A stretch of 64,000 bases of DNA from Pseudobythopirellula maris (GTDB taxonomy: Bacteria > Planctomycetota > Planctomycetia > Pirellulales > Lacipirellulaceae). The notes beneath the pieces were generated by a model. That model ran no database searches. It was not told where the DNA came from and saw nothing but the letters and a program-made list of their open reading frames with translations. Positions 1,996 through 13,925 of the stretch are shown in pieces (position 1 is the first letter of the stretch; each line of letters opens with the position of its first letter). The translations under genes were made by a program, and so were the position numbers. The stretch is taken from positions 1,762,489 through 1,826,488 of the forward strand of contig NZ_SJPQ01000001.1 of assembly GCF_007859945.1 (NCBI RefSeq), read 5' to 3'.

Positions 1996-3492
1996 ATGAG
2001 CCAAGTCCCCGCAATCCGCCTGCGCACCGTCAAAGAGGCCCCGGTCCGCCGCGACGGCGATTGGGTCCTCTACTGGATGACCGCCCAGCGACGCCCGCGG
2101 TACAATTTCGCCCTCCAGCACGCCCTTCATTGGTGCGAGGAGCTCGGCAAGCCGCTCGTAGTGCTCGAGCCCCTCAGGTGCGACTACCCATGGTCGTGCG
2201 AGCGGTTCCACCGGTTTGTAGTCCAAGGGATGGCCGACAACGCCCGGGCGATGGACCGCAAGGGCGTGACGCACTACCCCTACCTCGAGCCCGAGCCGGG
2301 CGCCGGCCGGGGGCTCTTGGCCGCTTGGGCCGAGCGGGCCTGCGTGGTCGTGGGCGACGATTACCCGGCCTACTTCCTGCGGCATCTGCCCCGCGCGGCG
2401 GCGCGACAGATCGACGTGCGGCTCGAAGTGGTCGACTCGAACGGCCTGTTGCCGATGCGGGCGGCCGACAGGACCTTCGCGCGGGCTTACGACCTGCGGC
2501 GGTTCCTGCAGAAGAACTTGCTGGAGCACCTCGCCGAGGCGCCCGAGAGCGACCCGCTCGACGAGACCGAGCCGCCGCGTTCCAAGCCCGTGCCCGATGA
2601 GATCGCCGAGCGCTGGCCGGCGGCCGAGCCGCGGCGTCTGCTCGACGAGAAAGACGGCTTCGCACGATTCCCGTTCGAGAACGAAGTGCCGACGGTCGAA
2701 ACGCTCGGCGGCCACGTCGCCGGCGAGGAGACGCTGCTAGCGTTCGTCGAGGAGAAGCTCGAGGCGTACGGCGACCAACGCAACCAGCCCGAGCGCGACG
2801 CCACCAGTCGGCTGTCGCCCTACCTGCATTTCGGCTGCGTCTCCGCGCACCAAGCGTTCGACGAGATCGCCGACCGCGAGCAGTGGAGCCCCAAGAAGGT
2901 CTCGAGCAAGACGGCCGGCCAACGCGAAGGGTGGTGGGGCATGAGCCCGGCGGCCGAGTCGTTCCTCGACGAGCTGGTGACTTGGCGCGAGCTCGGTTTC
3001 AACATGTGCTCACGCGAGACGCGCCACGACCGCTACGAGTCGCTCCCCGACTGGGCCCAGAAGACCTTGGCCGAGCACGAGGACGACGAGCGCGAGCACG
3101 TCTACACGCTCGAAGAGTTCGAGCGCGGCGCCACGCACGACGACCTCTGGAACGCCGCCCAGGGCCAGCTCGTGCGGGAGGGCTACATCCACAACTACCT
3201 GCGGATGCTGTGGGGCAAGAAGATCTTGCACTGGAGCGAGTCGCCGCGCGCGGCGCTCGACATCATGCTGGAGCTCAACAACAAGTACGCCCTCGACGGC
3301 CGCGACCCGAACTCCTACAGCGGCATCTTCTGGGTCCTGGGCCGCTACGACCGCGCCTGGGGCCCGGAGCGCGAGATCTTCGGCAAGATCCGCTACATGA
3401 CCTGCGACAACACCCGGCGGAAGTGCAGCGTCGATGGCTACATCGACGAGTACGCGCCAAGCGACGGGCAACTCAAACTAGGATTCGATTGA
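1996..3492 (+). CDS. phr: Class II deoxyribodipyrimidine photolyase
   Basis: A 498-residue flavoenzyme predicted to reverse cyclobutane pyrimidine dimers using blue or UVA light. The N-terminal antenna domain begins with LYWMTAQRRPRYNFAL, close to the class II YWM(S/T) motif. The FAD-binding region includes SRLSPYLHFGCVS at about 272-284, and the C-terminal class II block has QGQLVREGYIHNYLRM, WGKKILHW, LDGRDPNSYSG and FGKIRYM. These features separate it from class I photolyases and cryptochromes. Length is typical. It is transcribed on the plus strand between fmt and def, and its stop is 14 bp from the def stop, so the two genes converge. A light-repair enzyme suits a surface-water or photic-zone habitat, which is inference. 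Confidence 0.93.
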   Translation: MSQVPAIRLRTVKEAPVRRDGDWVLYWMTAQRRPRYNFALQHALHWCEELGKPLVVLEPLRCDYPWSCERFHRFVVQGMADNARAMDRKGVTHYPYLEPEPGAGRGLLAAWAERACVVVGDDYPAYFLRHLPRAAARQIDVRLEVVDSNGLLPMRAADRTFARAYDLRRFLQKNLLEHLAEAPESDPLDETEPPRSKPVPDEIAERWPAAEPRRLLDEKDGFARFPFENEVPTVETLGGHVAGEETLLAFVEEKLEAYGDQRNQPERDATSRLSPYLHFGCVSAHQAFDEIADREQWSPKKVSSKTAGQREGWWGMSPAAESFLDELVTWRELGFNMCSRETRHDRYESLPDWAQKTLAEHEDDEREHVYTLEEFERGATHDDLWNAAQGQLVREGYIHNYLRMLWGKKILHWSESPRAALDIMLELNNKYALDGRDPNSYSGIFWVLGRYDRAWGPEREIFGKIRYMTCDNTRRKCSVDGYIDEYAPSDGQLKLGFD

Positions 3493-4248: not shown

Positions 4249-5211
4249 ATGCCCCCGGCCGATCTCGCCCCGCCGAACAACCGCCCCCGCTCGCGGGCCG
4301 GCTTGCCGTCGTGGATCGCCTCGGCCGTGGTCCACGGCCTGCTCCTGCTGCTAGCGGTGTGGCTGCTCAGCGGCGCTCCGCGCGGCGGCGACGAGGCCCC
4401 GCGCGAGGCGGGCATCGTGCTCCGCACCACCAGCAACGAGGCGACGCTGTTCGAGGGCCAGCGCCCCGAGCCGGCCGACTCGCCCTCGGATTCGATCTCG
4501 GAAGAGAGCCAGCAGGCGCTGCTCGACGCCCTGCCGCCGGCCGACACGGCCGGCCTGGCCGAGTTGCTGCCGAGCAAGCAAGAGACGGGCCCCGCGCCGG
4601 CCGCGGCCGCCCAGGCCGCCTCGCTCGCCTCGGGCGGGGCGCCGCGTGGCGGTGTGCTCAAGCCGGGGCAGGCCCGCGTGTCGGTCTTCGGCGTCGAGGG
4701 CGAGGGGAGCCGCTTCGTCTACCTGTTCGACCGCTCGATCAGCATGGCCGGCGCCCCGCTCCGCGCCGCGCAGAACGAGCTCATCCGCAGCCTCGGGCCG
4801 CTCGAATCGATCCACCAGTTCCAGATCATCTTCTTCAACCAGAGCCAGTCGGTCTTCGACCTGTCGGGCGGGCAGAAACGCGTGGCGTTCGCCACCGATC
4901 CCAACAAGCAACTGGCCGCCGACTTCGTCAGCGGCGTCACGGCCAGCGGCGGCACCGACCGCTACGAGGCGCTCACGCTCGCCCTGAGGATGCGGCCCGA
5001 CGCGTTGTTCTTCCTCACCGACGCCGACGACCCGATGACGCCGCGCGAGATGAAGCTCGTCTTGGGGTCGCGTGCGGCCGGCGCCGTGACGATCAACACC
5101 ATCGAGTTCGGCCGCGGCCCGAGCCCCAGGCGGCGCAACTTCCTGGTGGCGCTCGCCGAGGCGACCAGCGGGCAGTACGGCTATGTCGACACGCAGAGGC
5201 TCACCAAGTGA
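4249..5211 (+). CDS. VWA-domain protein with TonB-like N-terminal helix
   Basis: A 320-residue membrane-anchored protein and first gene of the ExbB/ExbD operon. Residues 21-41 form one transmembrane helix that contains Ser25 and His29 in the spacing S-x3-H, the arrangement TonB and TolA use to couple to ExbB-ExbD or TolQ-TolR. A periplasmic low-complexity linker rich in Ala, Pro and Glu follows (about 45-140). Residues about 145-318 form a von Willebrand A domain with a MIDAS motif: Asp161-x-Ser163-x-Ser165, Thr236 in GGTD and Asp258 in LTDADD. The gene overlaps the next one by 4 nt. I infer that it is the energy-transducing partner of the downstream proton channel, in place of TonB. The VWA and helix are visible directly; the coupling is inference. 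Confidence 0.85.
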   Translation: MPPADLAPPNNRPRSRAGLPSWIASAVVHGLLLLLAVWLLSGAPRGGDEAPREAGIVLRTTSNEATLFEGQRPEPADSPSDSISEESQQALLDALPPADTAGLAELLPSKQETGPAPAAAAQAASLASGGAPRGGVLKPGQARVSVFGVEGEGSRFVYLFDRSISMAGAPLRAAQNELIRSLGPLESIHQFQIIFFNQSQSVFDLSGGQKRVAFATDPNKQLAADFVSGVTASGGTDRYEALTLALRMRPDALFFLTDADDPMTPREMKLVLGSRAAGAVTINTIEFGRGPSPRRRNFLVALAEATSGQYGYVDTQRLTK

Positions 5212-6269
5212 TAACAAGCCGTGGCAACACGACGGGCACTAAGACGCGCAGCCAGATAGCTGCGCGTGCTTTCGTCTTAAGCGTCGTGTCTTCGTGGTTC
5301 GTTCTTCCGACAGACGTTCGCGGCGACGAGGTGCTACTCTCCCCCAGCACACCCGGTGGGGCCAAACGGTCGGTCGTCGGTGAGATCCTCGATCTGACGG
5401 GCGAGCGGCTCACGCTGCGGCGCGAGAACGGCGCGGAGCTGCGAGCGCCCGCCGACCGGCTGCTCGACCTCAAGACCGTTTGGGAGGTCAGCTACGAGCG
5501 CAGCCGCGCGGCGATGGTCGTCGGCGAGTGGTCGGCCGCCGACGCGCTGTTGGCCGACGCGGTGCGCAGCGAGAAGCGGCCCTGGGCCAAACGCCGAGTG
5601 GTCGAAGACCTGATCGTGGTGCGCGTCGCGCTCGGCGCGAACGAGTCGGCCGGCGAGCTGTTCCTCGCCCTCGCGGCGAGCGACCCGGCTACGCCCGCCT
5701 GGCGGCTGGCGCCGCTGGCGTGGGAGCCTCCCACCGCCACGACCAGCGGCGGCGTTGGACGCCGAGTCGCCCTCAGGTGGCTCGGCGCGGCGAACGACCC
5801 CGTCGCCCGGCTGCTGGGCGCGAGCTGGCTCTTGGGCGACCGCGCCTCGGCGGCGGCCGAGGCCGAGCTGCTGCGGTTGGCCGAGAGCGACAACCCGCGT
5901 GTGGCGCCGCTCGCCACGGCGCAGCTCTGGCGGCTGCGGACACGCGACGCCCGCCCCGACCAACTCGCGCTGTGGGAAGAGAAGACGCGTGAAACGCCCG
6001 AGCCGGTCCGCGCCGGGCCGTGGCTCGTTGTCTCCCGCGGCCTGCTGGCCGCCGAGCGCTGGGACGAAGCCGCCACGGCGGCATTGCGTCTGCCGGCGTT
6101 CTACGGAGACAATCGCCCGCTGGCGGCGGCCGGGTTGCTCGTCGGCGTGAAGGCGACCGATGCCGCCGGCCACCCCGGCGAGTTGCGGCGGCTTGTCGCG
6201 GAGCTCCAAGAGAACTACCCCGAAACCGCCGCAGCAAAGCAACTGACAAGCCACGAAGCCACCCCTTAA
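5208..6269 (+). CDS. Secreted protein of the VWA-ExbBD operon
   Basis: A predicted 353-residue protein starting at a GTG that overlaps the previous stop (GTGA). The N-terminus gives a basic region, a hydrophobic core (AFVLSVVSSWFVLP) and a possible signal-peptidase site near VRG-DE, so export is likely. Residues about 45-90 look like a small beta domain (GEILDLTGERLTLRRENG), followed by an alanine-rich helical region typical of tetratricopeptide-like repeats. No specific family was recognised. The first 70 nt lie in a palindromic repeat (5226-5290), which means the signal peptide may have been derived from that repeat, or that the true start is further in (GTG at 5329 would remove the signal). 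It precedes exbB by 9 bp, so it is part of the operon. Confidence 0.75.
   Translation: MITSRGNTTGTKTRSQIAARAFVLSVVSSWFVLPTDVRGDEVLLSPSTPGGAKRSVVGEILDLTGERLTLRRENGAELRAPADRLLDLKTVWEVSYERSRAAMVVGEWSAADALLADAVRSEKRPWAKRRVVEDLIVVRVALGANESAGELFLALAASDPATPAWRLAPLAWEPPTATTSGGVGRRVALRWLGAANDPVARLLGASWLLGDRASAAAEAELLRLAESDNPRVAPLATAQLWRLRTRDARPDQLALWEEKTRETPEPVRAGPWLVVSRGLLAAERWDEAATAALRLPAFYGDNRPLAAAGLLVGVKATDAAGHPGELRRLVAELQENYPETAAAKQLTSHEATP
5226..5290. repeat. Interrupted palindrome in the 5' end of a CDS
   Basis: Nested complementary segments: AACACGAC (5226) against GTCGTGT (5283-5289), TAAGACG (5240) against CGTCTTA (5273), and a perfect 8-bp inner stem 5245-5252/5259-5266. The right arm reads like the CTTCGTG-type intergenic repeats of planctomycetes. 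It lies inside the predicted signal-peptide region of the gene at 5208-6269. Confidence 0.6.
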
Positions 6270-6278
6270 ACGATCATC

Positions 6279-6992
6279 GTGCCCCTAGATTCAATGGTTC
6301 CTCCTCTCCCCCTCGCCCAAGCGTCGGACGACGGCCTGCTCGACATCGTGCTGGCCGGCGGGCCGGTCGGCATGGCGATCATGGCGCTCTTGGCGGCGCT
6401 GTCGATGACCGCGCTCGCGCTGGTCGTCGAGCACGCGCTCACCATCCGCCGCGGCGTGCTCGCCCCGCCCGGGGTCGACGACGAGCTGGTCCGCGCGATG
6501 CGCGCGGGCGACCTCGCCGCCGCCGCGCGGGCTTGCGACAGCCAGCCCTGCTTCCTGTCGGCCGTCACCCGCGCCGGGCTGTCGGAGGCCGACGCCGGCT
6601 GGCCCGCCGTGGAGAAAGGGATGGAAGACGCCGCCGGCGACCAGACCGCCCGCCTGCTGCGCAAGATCGAGTACCTCTCGGTGATCGGCAACATCGCCCC
6701 GATGGTCGGCCTCTTGGGCACAGTGGTCGGCATGTTGCTCGCCTTCCGCGAGGTCGCCCAGACCGACGGCGCGGCGACCGCCTCGCAGCTCGCCTCGGGC
6801 ATCTACCAGGCGCTCGTCACCACGGTGGCCGGCCTGCTGGTGGCGATCCCGGCGCTCGGCGCCTTTGCCGTGTTCCGCAACCGGGTGGACGGGCTGGCGT
6901 CGGAAACGGCGCACAGGGCGCTGCAGTTGCTCAAGCCGCTGAAGCGCGGCGGCGTCATGCGGCCGAAAGACCAACAACCTGCGCGGCAATGA
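6279..6992 (+). CDS. exbB: MotA/TolQ/ExbB proton channel family protein
   Basis: A 237-residue inner-membrane protein with the three-helix ExbB/TolQ topology: helix 1 near 28-52, then a cytoplasmic loop, helix 2 around PMVGLLGTVVGMLLAF and helix 3 around ALVTTVAGLLVAIPALGAF. The GLLGTV-GM block and the glycine/alanine-rich third helix are diagnostic. ExbB pentamers form the stator around an ExbD dimer and use the proton gradient to do work in the periplasm. A GTG at 6279 is taken as start; an ATG five codons later is an alternative. It lies 9 bp after the previous gene and 64 bp before exbD. Whether it is closer to ExbB, TolQ or another subgroup cannot be decided by eye. Confidence 0.9.
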   Translation: MPLDSMVPPLPLAQASDDGLLDIVLAGGPVGMAIMALLAALSMTALALVVEHALTIRRGVLAPPGVDDELVRAMRAGDLAAAARACDSQPCFLSAVTRAGLSEADAGWPAVEKGMEDAAGDQTARLLRKIEYLSVIGNIAPMVGLLGTVVGMLLAFREVAQTDGAATASQLASGIYQALVTTVAGLLVAIPALGAFAVFRNRVDGLASETAHRALQLLKPLKRGGVMRPKDQQPARQ

Positions 6993-7056
6993 TTGCAAAT
7001 TTGCAATTTGAAATTTTGCAATACTCCCATTAAGCCCTACTCCCTCGCCACTCGCC

Positions 7057-7479
7057 GTGCGTCTCCCTCACACCCCCACAACGCGATCGCTCAGCATCAG
7101 CATGACGCCGATGATCGACGTCGTGTTCTTGCTGATCATCTTCTTCCTGGTGAGCAGCACGCTGGCCAAGCGGGAGACATTGCTCGACCTCGACCTGCCG
7201 ACCGCCGCAAGCGGCCGCGACAGCCAAGCCGACAGCACGCCGCACGTCACGGTGAACGTCGACGCCAGCGGCGTGGTGCTCCTGGCCGGCTCGCCCGTGC
7301 AGCCGGCCGAGTTGCTCGCGCGCCTCCGGGCGGAGTCGGAGCGGCACGAGGAAGGGATCACCGTGCGGGTGCGATCGGACCGCGCGGCCGACTACGCGTC
7401 GGTCGAGCCGGTGCTCGCCGCCTGCGCCGAGGCGGAGGTTTGGAACGTTGTCTTCGCGGTTTACGAAGACAAACAGTAA
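7057..7479 (+). CDS. exbD: ExbD/TolR family protein, first copy
   Basis: A 140-residue protein with one N-terminal transmembrane helix and a periplasmic domain. The helix carries SMTPMIDVVFLLIIFFLVSS, in which Asp21 corresponds to the proton-carrying Asp25 of E. coli ExbD. Residues about 60-140 form the typical ExbD/TolR periplasmic fold (HVTVNVDASGVVLLAG and a C-terminal beta-alpha unit). The start is a GTG at 7057. It is followed by a strong palindrome and then a second ExbD gene, so the two probably form a heterodimeric or alternative pair within the ExbB channel. Confidence 0.9.
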   Translation: MRLPHTPTTRSLSISMTPMIDVVFLLIIFFLVSSTLAKRETLLDLDLPTAASGRDSQADSTPHVTVNVDASGVVLLAGSPVQPAELLARLRAESERHEEGITVRVRSDRAADYASVEPVLAACAEAEVWNVVFAVYEDKQ

Positions 7480-7483
7480 GTGA

Positions 7484-7561
7484 ATGACCAATCACCAAGC
7501 CTCAATGACCAATTCTTGCGTGCCAAGCTTCCTTGGTCATTGAGGCTTGGTCATTGGTCAT
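7484..7561. repeat. 29-bp inverted repeat between the two exbD genes
   Basis: Arms 7484-7512 and 7533-7561 match with one mismatch over 29 bp around a 20-nt loop. Each arm contains two copies of ATTGGTCAT-like sequence, so it is a repeat within a repeat. It lies inside the operon and starts 5 nt after the first exbD stop; an RNA hairpin of this strength could attenuate or process the message and set the ratio of upstream to downstream products. Confidence 0.85.
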
Positions 7562-7604
7562 CCCCCCCCTATCCCCTCATCCCTAACCCCTAGCCCCTCC
7601 CCGT

Positions 7605-8084
7605 ATGCGTCTCGCCTGGCGAACCGAACGATCGCGCGACTCGACGCTCGGGGCGTCGATGACGCCGATGATCGATGTGGTGTTCCTGCTGCTGATCTTC
7701 TTCGTCTGCACCTCGAGCTTCAAAATCCCCGAGCAGGCGTTGCTGGCCGATCTCTTGGTGCAAAACTCGCAGGGCGCCGCAACGATCGAGCTCGACGACC
7801 TGCCGGAGCTCGACGAGGTCGTGCTCCACGGCGAGCCGGGCGACGAGGGCGTGGCCGTGTGGACTTTCAACGACGACCGCCGCTGCGAGACCCGCCAGGA
7901 ACTGCTGCAGCTCTTGGCCGCGCTCGCCGAGGTCGACGGCTCGCTGCCGGTGATCGTCGACGCCGAGGGCGCCGTGCCGTTCGGTGAGGCGATCTCCGCG
8001 TACGACGCCGCCCGGCTTGCCGGCTTCGACACGGTGCAGTTCGCCGCCTCGGCCGACACGCTCACCGACGGGGGCGCCCGATGA
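7605..8084 (+). CDS. exbD: ExbD/TolR family protein, second copy
   Basis: A 159-residue ExbD/TolR protein. The single helix carries SMTPMIDVVFLLLIFFVCTS with Asp24 in the proton-carrying position. The periplasmic domain differs strongly from the first copy (an acidic stretch, then VWTFNDDRRCETRQELLQLL), so this is a diverged paralog and not a recent duplicate. Its stop overlaps the next gene start in ATGA (8081-8084). Two unlike ExbD proteins behind one ExbB are common in planctomycetes and related phyla, and suggest a hetero-oligomeric stator. Confidence 0.88.
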   Translation: MRLAWRTERSRDSTLGASMTPMIDVVFLLLIFFVCTSSFKIPEQALLADLLVQNSQGAATIELDDLPELDEVVLHGEPGDEGVAVWTFNDDRRCETRQELLQLLAALAEVDGSLPVIVDAEGAVPFGEAISAYDAARLAGFDTVQFAASADTLTDGGAR

Positions 8085-10555
8085 CGAGGCCGGCCTCATC
8101 GACGCCGCGGCTGCTTGCTTTGGCGGCGTTGCTCGTCGCCCTCTCGCCCGCGGCGGCGCCGGCGGGACGCGTCGATGCGTACGCCGATTGGCTCCGCACG
8201 CGTGGGCTAGGCCGACTCGCCGAGTCGCACCTTCGGCGCGAATCGCAACGCGACGACCTGACCGACGCCGAAGCGCTTGAGACGGCGCTCGCCTGGTCCG
8301 CCCTGCGCGCCGACGAGGCCCTGGCCACGCCCCCTGGCGCCGACGCCTCGCGCGCCTGGGATCGCGCGAACGAGCCGCTCGCAAGGCTTGCGTCCGAACG
8401 GCCCGAGGCGCCGCGGCTGCTCATCGCCCGGTTGCAACTGGCGCTGAACGCCGCCGCCGAGGGCGCCGCGCTCGACGACCTCGATTTGCTCCGAGAGGCG
8501 GCCGACGCCATGGGCCGGACGGCCGACGCGATCGAGCGGCTCCGCCGCGTGGGGGACGAGGCGGGTGGATTCAGCCAATCCGAAATCGAGTCGCTCGCCA
8601 ATCGGGTCGCCCTGACTCAGGGCGAGACACTGCTCGCCGTCGGCGAGCGACTGCCGGCCGACTCGGCCGATCGCGACGACGCGCTGCTGCGTGCGCTGAT
8701 GACCGTCGAGCCGCTCAGCAAGAAACGGCTGCCCGCGCCCGTGCTATTGCGGGCGCAACTCGCCGAGCTGCGTAGCCGGCGCCTGCTGGGCCGCCTCGCC
8801 GTGGCGACCGAGCAGCTCGCCCGCTGGCTTCAGGCGCACGCCGAGCCCGCGGCCCGCTCGGCGCTCAACGCCGAGCGGGTTCGCCTGCTGCTGGCCGGCG
8901 GAGAGCGTGAGCAAGCCTTGCAAGCGATCGAGGAGCGCAAGCGGTCGCAAGCTCCACCGCACGACGAGTTCGACCTGGCCGAAGTCGAGGCCCTCGCCGC
9001 CGTGTGGCGCGAGGCCGAGGGCGCCGCCCGACGGCGACACGCCGAGACGATCCGCGAGGCGCTCGCTCAAGGCGAATCGCGGCACGGAGGATCGTGGGCG
9101 CGGCGAGCCGAGCGACTGGCCGGCGAGGCGTTGCTCGACATGACGGCCGGCGACGCCGAATCGCTCTCGGTGGCCGCCGCCTACCTGTACCGGATGGGCC
9201 GCTCGGCCGAGGCGGTCGAGCGATACGACCGCGCGGCGTCCGCCGCCTACAACGCGGGGGGACGCGGCCGAGCGTTCGAGCTCGCGATCGCCGCCGCGGC
9301 CATCACCGCCCAGCGGGGCGAACACGCCCACGCCGCCGAGCGGTTCCGCCGCGCCGCGTTGTCGAACTCCGACCACCCACGCGCCGCCGAGGCGCACCGT
9401 GCGGCCTGGCTCGCCGCCATGCAGGGGCTGCGAGCCAAGCCCGGCGACAAGCCGGTCGCCGAGCGCTGCCTCGCGCTGCTCGAGGAGCACACCGGCGCCT
9501 GGCCCGAATCGCCGAGCGCCGCGGACGCGGCGCGGTTGCGGCTCGGGCTGCTCGCCGGGCTCTCCCGCTGGGACCAGTTGCTCGCCGCGCTCGGGCGTCT
9601 GCCAGCCGACGAGGCCGCGACGCCCGCGACCATCGAACTCACCGCCCGCGCGTACGAGGGCAAGGTGGCTGGCGCGGCGGCCGCCGAATCGATCGCCCTG
9701 ATCGCCGAGGCGACCGCAACGCTGCAGCCGGTCATCACCGGCAAGGCGAACAGCTGGCCGCCCTCGTGGAGCGACTCGCAACGCCGCTGCGCGTTGGCCT
9801 TGGGCCGGATCCACCTCGCCCGCGGCGCGGCGGGCGCCGAGTACGCCGCCCAACTGCTCGGGGTTGCCGTGGCGGGGTCGCCCAAGCCTTCTGCCGCGTG
9901 GCTGGCCGAAGCGCTGCCGGTGCTCGCCCAGGCCCAGGTGACGCTCGGCCAAATCGGCGAGGCCCGCACCACGCTCTCACGGATAAGCGGCCGTGAAGGT
10001 TTTGCCGCTCCACGGCTTGTCGAGTCGCTCGTCGCGCGGCTCGCTATGGCGGACGGGGGCGTGGCCGATAGGAGTGAGCAGCGGCGCGAGGTTGCCGAGC
10101 TCTTGCTTTCGGTTGTTGATCCGTTGCTGGAGGACGAATCGCTGCAAGAAGCGGCGACAGACGAGAATCAGTCGCTGCGTCGCGGCCGTGCGGTCGCCTT
10201 GGGGGCGCTCGGGCGAGAAGGCGAAGCGGTCGCCCAGCTCGAGACACTCGCCGCCGAGCGGCCCGACGACGGCGCCACCCAGCGGGCGCTCGCCGCGCAG
10301 CTCGCCCGCTCCGCGTCGGCCGCGAGCCGAGAGCGGGCCCTCGGCTTGTGGCGCAAGATCGAGGCCCGCAGCCGCCGTGGTGGCGCGGGGTGGGTTGAGG
10401 CGCGGGTCGCGAGGCTGCGGCTGCTGGTGGCCCTCGGCCGCACGGAAGAAGCCGCCAAGTTGTTGCGCCTCACGCGGTTGCTGGCGGGCAACTCGCTCGA
10501 CGCCAAGGCGAACGCGAGCCTCGACGCGATCGAGGCCTTGCTGCCGGAGCCGTAA
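8081..10555 (+). CDS. Large exported alpha-helical repeat (TPR-like) protein
   Basis: An 824-residue protein and the last gene of the ExbBD operon, translationally coupled to the second exbD. It has a signal peptide (residues 1-28: Arg near the start, LLALAALLVALSPAAAPAG) and then an almost entirely helical, Ala/Glu/Arg/Leu-rich sequence. Tetratricopeptide-like helix pairs can be seen, such as AAYLYRMGRSAEAVERYDRA and AGEREQALQAIEER. No catalytic motif is visible. I infer a periplasmic scaffold that binds other envelope components or the VWA protein. A convergent terminator follows at 10561-10594. Codon use matches its neighbours. Confidence 0.8.
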   Translation: MTRPASSTPRLLALAALLVALSPAAAPAGRVDAYADWLRTRGLGRLAESHLRRESQRDDLTDAEALETALAWSALRADEALATPPGADASRAWDRANEPLARLASERPEAPRLLIARLQLALNAAAEGAALDDLDLLREAADAMGRTADAIERLRRVGDEAGGFSQSEIESLANRVALTQGETLLAVGERLPADSADRDDALLRALMTVEPLSKKRLPAPVLLRAQLAELRSRRLLGRLAVATEQLARWLQAHAEPAARSALNAERVRLLLAGGEREQALQAIEERKRSQAPPHDEFDLAEVEALAAVWREAEGAARRRHAETIREALAQGESRHGGSWARRAERLAGEALLDMTAGDAESLSVAAAYLYRMGRSAEAVERYDRAASAAYNAGGRGRAFELAIAAAAITAQRGEHAHAAERFRRAALSNSDHPRAAEAHRAAWLAAMQGLRAKPGDKPVAERCLALLEEHTGAWPESPSAADAARLRLGLLAGLSRWDQLLAALGRLPADEAATPATIELTARAYEGKVAGAAAAESIALIAEATATLQPVITGKANSWPPSWSDSQRRCALALGRIHLARGAAGAEYAAQLLGVAVAGSPKPSAAWLAEALPVLAQAQVTLGQIGEARTTLSRISGREGFAAPRLVESLVARLAMADGGVADRSEQRREVAELLLSVVDPLLEDESLQEAATDENQSLRRGRAVALGALGREGEAVAQLETLAAERPDDGATQRALAAQLARSASAASRERALGLWRKIEARSRRGGAGWVEARVARLRLLVALGRTEEAAKLLRLTRLLAGNSLDAKANASLDAIEALLPEP

Positions 10556-11891: not shown

Positions 11892-13925
11892 TTGGCTAAG
11901 AGCAGCACCAAGACCGGCGTCGCGACACGGGCCCCCAAACCCGCCTCCGCTCGACGCAGCACCGCCCAGGCGATGGCCGCCTCGCAGAAGGAGATCTCCG
12001 TCTCGGAGTTCTTCGCCAAGAACCGCCACCTGCTGGGTTTCGACAACCCGCGCAAGTCGCTGCTCACCACCGTGAAGGAGGCGGTCGACAACTCGCTCGA
12101 CGCCTGCGAAGAGGCCGGCATCCTGCCCGAAATCTGGGTCCACATCGAGCCGACCACCACCGGCCGCTACAAGGTCGGCATCCAAGACAACGGCCCCGGC
12201 ATCCTCAAGAAGCAGATCCCGCTGATCTTCGGCAAGCTGCTCTACGGCTCGAAGTTCCACCGCCTGCGCCAGAGCCGCGGCCAGCAGGGCATCGGCATCT
12301 CCGCCGCCGGCATGTACGGCGTGCAGACCACGGGCAAGCCGGTCAAAATCATCTCGAAGGTCTCCGTCCGCAAGCCGGCCCATTACTACGAGATCCAGAT
12401 CGACACCCGGCGCAACGAGCCCAAGATCCTCAACGGCAAGGGCGAAGGGGTCGACATCCCGCCCGGCGAGAAGGGCGCCGCCTACATCGAGAAGCACGGC
12501 ATCGAGTGGGTTGACCAGCCGCACGGCACGCGGGTGACGATCGAGCTCGAGGCCAAATTCGTCCGCGGCCGCGGCAGCGTCGACGAGTACCTGCAGCAGA
12601 CCGCCATCGCCAACCCGCACGTGACACTGCATTACCTCGACCCCGAGGATTACCAGTACGACTACCTGCGCAGCGCCGAGGTGCTGCCCCCCGAGGCCAA
12701 GGAGATCAAGCCGCACCCTTACGGCGTGGAGGTCGGCCGGCTCGCCACGATGATCGAGGAGGCCGAGGCGCAGAGCGTCTCGGAGTTCTTCCGCACCCGG
12801 TTCTCACGCGTCACGCCGGCCGTGGCCAAGCGGCTCTGCGAGACGGCCAAGGTGTCGTCGCGCACGAACGTCCACAAGGTCGACCGCCCGCAGATCGACC
12901 AGCTCTACGCGGCGATCCAGGAGACCAAGATCTCGCCGCCGGCGACCGACTGCATCTGCCCGATCGGCGAGGGGCTGATCCTCAAGGGGCTGCACCAGGT
13001 CGTGCCGGGCGAGTTCTACGCCGCCGCCACCCGCCCCCCCTCCGTTTACCGCGGCAACCCCTTCCAGGTGGAAGTGGGCCTCGCCTACGGCGGCTCGGCG
13101 CCGACGCAGAACATCACGATGGAGTTGCTGCTCGACCTGCTCGAAGAGACCGACACCAGGACGATCCGCCAGTTCCTCATCCACACGTTCAACGGCCTGG
13201 GGTCCGACGCCGCCGACAAGATCGTCAAGGCCGCCACGCTCAAGACACGCCAGAACCCCTCGGGCCTCAAGCCCAAGGAACGCCAGAAGCTGTTCGAGGC
13301 GATGAAGAACGTGAACGTGGCCGAGGGGCAACAGATGGAGGTGATGCGCTACGCCAACCGCGTGCCGCTGCAGTTCCAGCAAGCCGCCTGCTGCGTGACA
13401 CAGAGCGTGAGCGGTATGAACTGGCGCGGCTACGGCCTGAGCCAGTCGCGCGGCAGCATGCCCAAGGGCCCGGTGAGCCTGATGGTGCACATCGCCAGCG
13501 TGTGGGTTCCCTTCACCAGCGAGTCGAAGGAGGCGATCGCTTCCTACCCGGAGATCCAGAAGGAGATCCGCCTCGGCCTGCAGGCCGTCGGCCGCAAGCT
13601 CGGCATGTACCTCCGCCGCCGCCTGAAGGTGAAGCAGCAGTCCGACCGCCGCGAGGTCTTCTTGCGTTACCTCAAGGAAGTGGCCACGGCCGTCAGCGAG
13701 ATCAACGCCGCCGAGGAGCGCGAGCTGTACGACCAGCTCGTGAAGGTCGCCGAGAAGCGAACCGCCGAGGCCGACATGAAGCTCGACGACCGCGGCCGGC
13801 CGATCGAAGAAGACCCGACCGAGCTGAACCTGGGCGACAACGTGCTGATCGTCGATCCCGCGCAACACGAGGCGGCGATTAATCGCGTGGGAGCGGTGGA
13901 GGAGGAAGAGCTCGAAGAGGACTGA
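11892..13925 (+). CDS. top6B: DNA topoisomerase VI subunit B
   Basis: A 677-residue ATPase subunit of a type IIB topoisomerase, which relaxes and decatenates DNA by passing one duplex through a double-strand break made by subunit A. The GHKL ATPase domain has the N-box [14 protein letters not shown] (Glu63, Asn67, Asp71), DNGPGI at 99-104 and [12 protein letters not shown] at 129-140 (ATP lid). A helix-two-turn-helix region follows, and the transducer domain contains WVPFTSESK with Lys546 at the position of the switch lysine that contacts the ATP gamma-phosphate. A poorly conserved acidic C-terminal tail ends EEEELEED. Start is TTG at 11892. The partner top6A is at the right edge of the window on the opposite strand. 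Topoisomerase VI is mainly archaeal and plant, so this gene probably has a transfer history. Confidence 0.93.

Follow-up and report, generated by a model that had tools for sequence, protein, structure and literature searches.

A cluster of six genes in the planctomycete Pseudobythopirellula maris is likely to encode a force transducer of the vWA type together with its proton-driven motor, in which a TonB-like helix would dock on ExbB while the metal ion-dependent adhesion site (MIDAS) of a von Willebrand factor A (VWA) domain grips a partner in the periplasm. The cluster lies in a stretch of 64,000 nucleotides on contig NZ_SJPQ01000001.1 (positions 1,762,489 to 1,826,488), hereafter the window, from a genome of 5.07 Mb in 6 contigs. 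Its six genes run in one direction (+) and encode a VWA protein, a secreted protein (gene 2), ExbB, ExbD1, ExbD2 and an exported TPR-like protein (gene 6), as set out in Table 1. This content, including two unlike ExbDs and an exported repeat protein, had been proposed in an initial annotation and was borne out by the coordinates of the open reading frames (ORFs) and by Pfam (MotA_ExbB, 1.5e-27, for ExbB; ExbD, 1.5e-26 and 1.3e-15, for the two ExbDs); genes 1, 2 and 6 matched no family above its cutoff in Pfam or NCBIfam. Coupling of a TonB-like helix, carried on a VWA domain, to the ExbB-ExbD motor may be considered well supported from the sequences, because Ser25 and His29 of the helix were conserved, as were the docking serine and the proline of the third transmembrane helix (TM3) of ExbB.

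The same annotation had placed Ser25 and His29 in S-x3-H spacing within one helix, and an AlphaFold2 (AF2) model built from 44 sequences agreed, both residues falling inside helix 21-41 with a predicted local distance difference test score (pLDDT) of about 96. Conservation of the pair among orthologues had been set beforehand as one of two tests that could refute the proposal, and the proposal passed it. Pooling of the orthologues that scored 180 or more against the profile, followed by removal of duplicates, reduced 166 ORFs to 122 distinct sequences, 118 of them with an N-terminus; Ser25 and His29 were each found in 118/118 of the latter, and Trp22 in 117/118. Across the aligned stretch 16-45 of these 118 sequences, Ser25 and His29 showed zero entropy, and the other 28 positions exceeded 2 bits except for Pro20, Ser21, Trp22 and position 36. 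The part of the pooled set that did not come from a pattern scan had Ser, His and all MIDAS residues in 61/61. A family-level search gave 30 loci, all with S-x3-H within the N-terminal hydrophobic stretch, and Trp22, Ser25 and His29 were invariant in the 28 that were aligned. A single pattern scan of named genomes, from which 80 of 408 relatives were kept (the named loci), gave Ser and His in 77/77 sequences with an aligned N-terminus, window included, with four more lacking one. Twenty further loci were picked by hand from two other families of the class, outside the window's order, in which the matches mostly extended to the N-terminus; 20/20 had Trp, Ser and His together with all five residues of the MIDAS site. 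Chance was assessed within the same 80 loci, using ORFs of at least 200 amino acids that passed a hydrophobicity cut, and although ORF calling was crude, S-x3-H occurred in a hydrophobic stretch of 50 of 51 VWA ORFs versus 5 of 148 other ORFs. Beyond the helix, a GxVL-like stretch was seen in 88/115 VWA proteins, against a mean of 7.3 in shuffles.

Only four of the 122 distinct VWA sequences were without the N-terminal helix. In one (L128) a helix was located upstream in another frame, which looks like a frameshift. The other three (L111, L113 and L122) were VWA paralogues that opened with a signal-peptide-like stretch lacking S-x3-H, and the sequence examined around them showed no recognisable counterpart of any other gene of the cluster. 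The joint absence of helix and motor gene in these paralogues supports the coupling of the two, as does the presence of S-x3-H in true planctomycete TonB_C proteins (9/10 loci). The three paralogues look as if they have been freed from the membrane. A further 30 loci mostly held VWA paralogues, L053 and L056 being orthologues; S-x3-H was retained in 27 of their 32 VWA rows, while the remaining five comprised one with Thr and two with Ala in place of Ser, and two without such a motif.

The assignment of the end domain as a VWA domain with a full MIDAS motif, also part of the initial annotation, was upheld by fold, by structural matches and by residue conservation. In the AF2 model the linker, at about residues 45-140, had no confident structure, and was followed by a VWA domain at 142-318 with pLDDT mostly above 90. 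The MIDAS motif was identified as D161-x-S163-x-S165, T236 and D258, and these residues (DxSxS, Thr, Asp) were invariant in all 122 distinct pooled sequences. Sequence matches in the PDB were ITIH4 and ITIH1; the best Foldseek matches were ITIH4, ITIH1, a bacterial VWA protein, the calcium-channel alpha2-delta subunit, CLCA1 and BatB. The protein gave no match to a TonB or TolA C-terminal domain in Pfam or NCBIfam, its fold being VWA by Foldseek.

The motor proteins were compared with the network described in the part of PMC12215075 available, where Ser16 and His20 of TonB contact Ser34 and Trp38 of ExbB, Trp38 touches Pro190, and the same network is found in TolQ. Conservation of ExbB was measured over 48 named loci plus the window (n = 49). 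The docking serine (Ser42 in the window) was present in 49/49, the TM3 proline in 47/47 aligned sequences, and the two pore threonine positions in 48/48 and 47/47 aligned sequences. The transmembrane aspartate was kept in 47/47 ExbD1 and 42/42 ExbD2 sequences, and the two ExbDs separated clearly by profile score.

Gene order was examined in those named loci, 53 in all, whose sequence continued for 6 kb or more beyond the VWA gene. The full order gene 2-ExbB-ExbD1-ExbD2-TPR followed the VWA gene in 24/53, the same order minus gene 2 in 8/53 and minus a detected TPR gene in 2/53; all three motor genes were thus found after the VWA gene in 34/53, and one more locus had only gene 2-ExbB-ExbD1. Overall, gene 2 was present in 33/53 and gene 6 in 37/53. 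Matches to the VWA protein occurred in 41/43 genomes of the family, and the VWA family profile matched 281/297 genomes of the class sample and 119/148 of the phylum sample, all of these counts including other VWA proteins.

Several observations weigh against this interpretation. The docking tryptophan of ExbB was found in 0/49 sequences, its position being occupied by Ala, Val, Leu or another residue; with Ser and Pro kept and Trp never, the docking site is conserved in part. The initial interpretation is supported in part: the helix pair and the Ser and Pro of ExbB speak for coupling, and the missing tryptophan speaks against it. (Trp22 of the VWA helix was considered as a substitute for the missing residue and the idea was dropped, both because the toroid transducers described below have no Trp there and because readable TM1 stretches of ExbB from toroid operons have no Trp at the ExbB position.) The strict TonB D-box, using the pattern given in the available part of PMC10907165, occurred in only 1/115 VWA proteins. 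MIDAS conservation among the named loci was partly built in by the scan patterns, and the gene models behind the order count, having been derived from these very loci, could overlook diverged genes. Eighteen of the 53 named loci had no adjacent ExbB: nine had none of the genes (the three secreted VWA paralogues among them), four had gene 2 only, three TPR only, and two gene 2 and TPR. Similarly, 18 of the 30 further loci that mostly hold VWA paralogues gave no motor-gene match. Ten genomes were selected for the apparent lack of an ExbB next to the VWA gene (the neighbourhood in G042 being unread when picked), and a close ExbB was found elsewhere in eight (E 3.3e-45 or better), at about 10 kb distance in G041 and G042; the other two had no close ExbB, the best matches being about 1e-28 and 1e-27. 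Six more genomes, those of loci L089, L092, L096, L107, L132 and L133, had distant ExbBs only, with best matches from 8e-25 to 5e-34. In such genomes the motor either has to work in trans or has to be a different one.

On the features it describes, we file the window cluster with the vWA force transducers of Williams-Jones et al. 2025 (PMC12204202). The part of that paper available reports vWA proteins with TolA/TonB-like topology and a Ser-His motif from Planctomycetes and others, whose neighbours are a TPR gene, a tolQ-like gene and two unlike tolR-like genes; its AlphaFold3 (AF3) models put the transducer helix at the motor's TonB/TolA site, so that coupling had already been proposed, and gliding is one suggested role. 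The window cluster resembles this description in its Ser-His transmembrane helix, long linker (about 100 residues), vWA end domain and adjoining tolQ-like, two unlike tolR-like and TPR genes, although the TPR match in the window was weak. It differs in having the VWA gene first and the TPR gene last, where the paper has vWA downstream of the others, in an extra gene between (beta domain plus TPR-like solenoid), and in that the full SHLS motif is not conserved in the window family, with Leu in 74/118 (Ala in the window) and the last Ser not conserved. According to the same part of the paper, full SHLS is a property of many, not all, vWA transducers, and the portion of PMC12215075 available has Leu and Ser less conserved for Ton too. 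PMC12204202 also ascribes to its transducers a motor box that binds the TolR/ExbD dimer; at the corresponding place the window family showed the strict D-box in 1/115 and the GxVL-like stretch in 88/115. A second vWA family in the available part of PMC12204202 (pore-helix vWA, TolQ only) likewise tethers vWA to a TolQ-like motor, but through an ExbD-like pore helix with Asp and no Ser-His pair, whereas the window cluster has separate ExbDs. The words MIDAS and metal were absent from the text of PMC12204202, which was the only paper found on such vWA systems, other literature matches being judged by their listing. Relative to TonB-ExbB-ExbD and TolA-TolQ-TolR, the window cluster shares the Ser-x3-His helix, the docking Ser, TM3 Pro and pore Thr of ExbB and the Asp of ExbD; it differs in carrying a MIDAS VWA domain rather than a TonB/TolA end domain, in lacking the ExbB Trp and a strict D-box, and in having two ExbDs.

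As envisaged, ExbB would form a heteromeric proton-driven motor of the 5:2 type with the two ExbDs, the pore probably holding one ExbD1 and one ExbD2. The VWA helix would dock on the outside of ExbB, with Ser25 and His29 against Ser42, as TonB and TolA do, and the linker would be long enough for the VWA domain to cross the periplasm and grip a partner there through its MIDAS site, probably with a metal. This partner would most likely be an exported protein encoded in the cluster (gene 2 or gene 6) or else lie at the outer membrane, and proton flow may pull on the VWA grip or cycle it. Our guess is that the process served is envelope maintenance rather than uptake.

Bat operons pair VWA with TPR proteins and are not known to include ExbBD, and they provide the model for an alternative that we regard as unlikely, in which ExbB is bound by the helix while the VWA domain serves as a static scaffold with a MIDAS site, or as an assembly factor, that organises TPR proteins, the motor acting on the cell wall via its ExbDs. 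In keeping with this, the structure of BatB is among the Foldseek matches of the window VWA protein, and five of the 53 named loci have VWA and TPR without the motor, three of them lacking gene 2 and two retaining it; however, a linker that is long and unstructured, and a docking pair like that of TonB, are better suited to an outward-reaching tether. A less probable alternative is that TonB is replaced, in energising outer-membrane receptors, by the VWA domain or by a different S-x3-H transducer encoded in the genome. The window's genome does have two Plug-domain proteins and no match to TonB_C, but the end domain has the VWA fold and not that of TonB_C, Pfam shows no receptor among the six cluster genes, and TonB_C was found in 11/59 genomes sampled from the class (48/59 being without it by this test), and at least four of these 11 (G047, G058, G069 and G073) also have the VWA family. 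About as improbable is a role of the S-x3-H pair in some other membrane contact, the motor genes being no more than adjacent: VWA proteins with S-x3-H often have no recognised motor gene close by, but the motif is gone where the anchor is gone, and it is common to unrelated end domains encoded behind ExbD and to TonB_C proteins.

The features of the cluster are listed in Table 1. The GTG start of gene 2 at 5208 overlaps the VWA stop (GTGA), and the ATG start of gene 6 at 8081 overlaps the stop of ExbD2 (ATGA). The AF2 model of gene 2, from 13 sequences, had a pLDDT of 89 and a predicted template modelling score (pTM) of 0.83; its Foldseek matches were weak (PilW, PilF, LapB and BamD; best E 1.2e-3).

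Table 1. Features of the gene cluster, in window coordinates.
Feature	Coordinates	Strand	Basis
VWA protein, 320 amino acids: short N-terminus, one transmembrane helix, disordered linker, VWA domain	4249..5211	+	
Transmembrane helix, residues 21-41, with Trp22, Ser25 (4321-4323) and His29 (4333-4335)	4309..4371	+	AF2, conservation
Hydrophobic stretch 3' of helix, residues 52-58, consensus RxxGIVL; candidate ExbD-binding strand	4402..4422	+	Conservation
VWA domain with MIDAS: D161/S163/S165 (4729-4743), T236 (4954-4956), D258 (5020-5022)	4672..5202	+	Conservation, PDB sequence matches, Foldseek
Gene 2, secreted: signal-peptide-like helix, small five-stranded beta domain, TPR-like helical solenoid	5208..6269	+	AF2, Foldseek
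ExbB/TolQ-type channel protein with Ser42 (TonB-docking serine), Thr148, Thr182, Pro191	6279..6992	+	PF01618, alignment to TolQ/ExbB
ExbD1, transmembrane Asp21	7057..7479	+	PF02472
ExbD2, separate ExbD lineage, transmembrane Asp24	7605..8084	+	PF02472
Gene 6, large exported TPR-like repeat protein, 824 amino acids	8081..10555	+	Weak TPR_19 match under cutoff

Six MotA/ExbB-family genes were found in the window's genome, the loci of four of the five outside the cluster being read, and a combination of ExbB, ExbD and a squalene-cyclase-like toroid probably represents a second kind of transducer in the same bacteria. In this genome (L038:9415-12535; G000:C4:199000-218900) ExbB and ExbD are followed by a protein of 612 amino acids with an S-x3-H helix, a proline/glutamate-rich linker and an alpha/alpha-toroid domain (SQHop_cyclase_C 1.8e-5, just under cutoff). 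Its relatives, being toroids in general, were present in 118/118 class genomes at E up to 0.001. Among the best 30 toroid loci, ExbD preceded the gene in 30/30 and ExbB was seen in 16, the flanks being short; His was kept in 30/30 and Ser in 29/30 (one Ala). For 20 further loci from five families, taken from the same list, the values were 20/20 and 19/20, with a motor gene beside 16/20, giving a combined total of His in 50/50 and Ser in 48/50. The strict TonB D-box occurred in 1/26 toroid proteins, a count in which 4/30 loci were skipped by the regular expression and the region was mis-picked in at least two rows. A search of the genome with the helix profile, at an E-value limit of 10, returned eight matches (an initial version of the profile gave seven), and reading them showed S-x3-H helices in five: the window VWA protein, three others that match VWA in Pfam, and a toroid protein of 544 amino acids (L251, G000:C1:855134). 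The last has a PAWLISAAMH helix, with SQHop_cyclase_C and Prenyltrans above cutoff, and the nearest MotA/ExbB-family genes on its contig are more than 300 kb away. The profile was not exhaustive, as it missed the 612-residue protein. No paper on toroid transducers was found in the open-access library searched, PMC12204202 included, and the kind is apparently undescribed; new protein architectures in Gemmataceae were reported by Mahajan et al. 2020, according to the part of PMC8567305 available. We put at about even the chances that the S-x3-H helix of Planctomycetia is a general plug for ExbBD with exchangeable end domains, several to a genome (window VWA/MIDAS, other VWA and toroid), which together largely replace TonB.

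Other loci of the genome were also noted. A paralogous cluster (L037:4672-11107; G000:C4:434000-453000) comprises a 1028-codon ORF for an exported protein, a TPR protein like gene 2, ExbB and two ExbDs; no S-x3-H protein was recognised beside these motor genes. At L040:6268-10931 (G000:C1:524000-543500), a secreted protein with HEAT and toroid matches under cutoff is followed by ExbB and two ExbD-type ORFs. L039, one of the six MotA/ExbB-family members, resembles flagellar MotA by eye. Within the window, 11892-13925 encodes subunit B of Topoisomerase VI (Pfam Topo-VIb_trans 5.7e-53), an enzyme better known from archaea and plants, and 1996-3492 a protein that we take, by eye, to resemble class II photolyase, for which Pfam gives only a DUF7239 match under cutoff.

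These results add broad conservation evidence to a family of force transducers that has so far rested on structure prediction, and they single out particular residues: Ser25 and His29 of the helix, Ser42 of ExbB, the two ExbD aspartates, and D161, S163, S165, T236 and D258 of the MIDAS site. The toroid kind, if confirmed, would mean that one kind of proton-driven motor is fitted with quite different domains in bacteria, and could shed light on how the planctomycete outer envelope is energised when TonB is missing.

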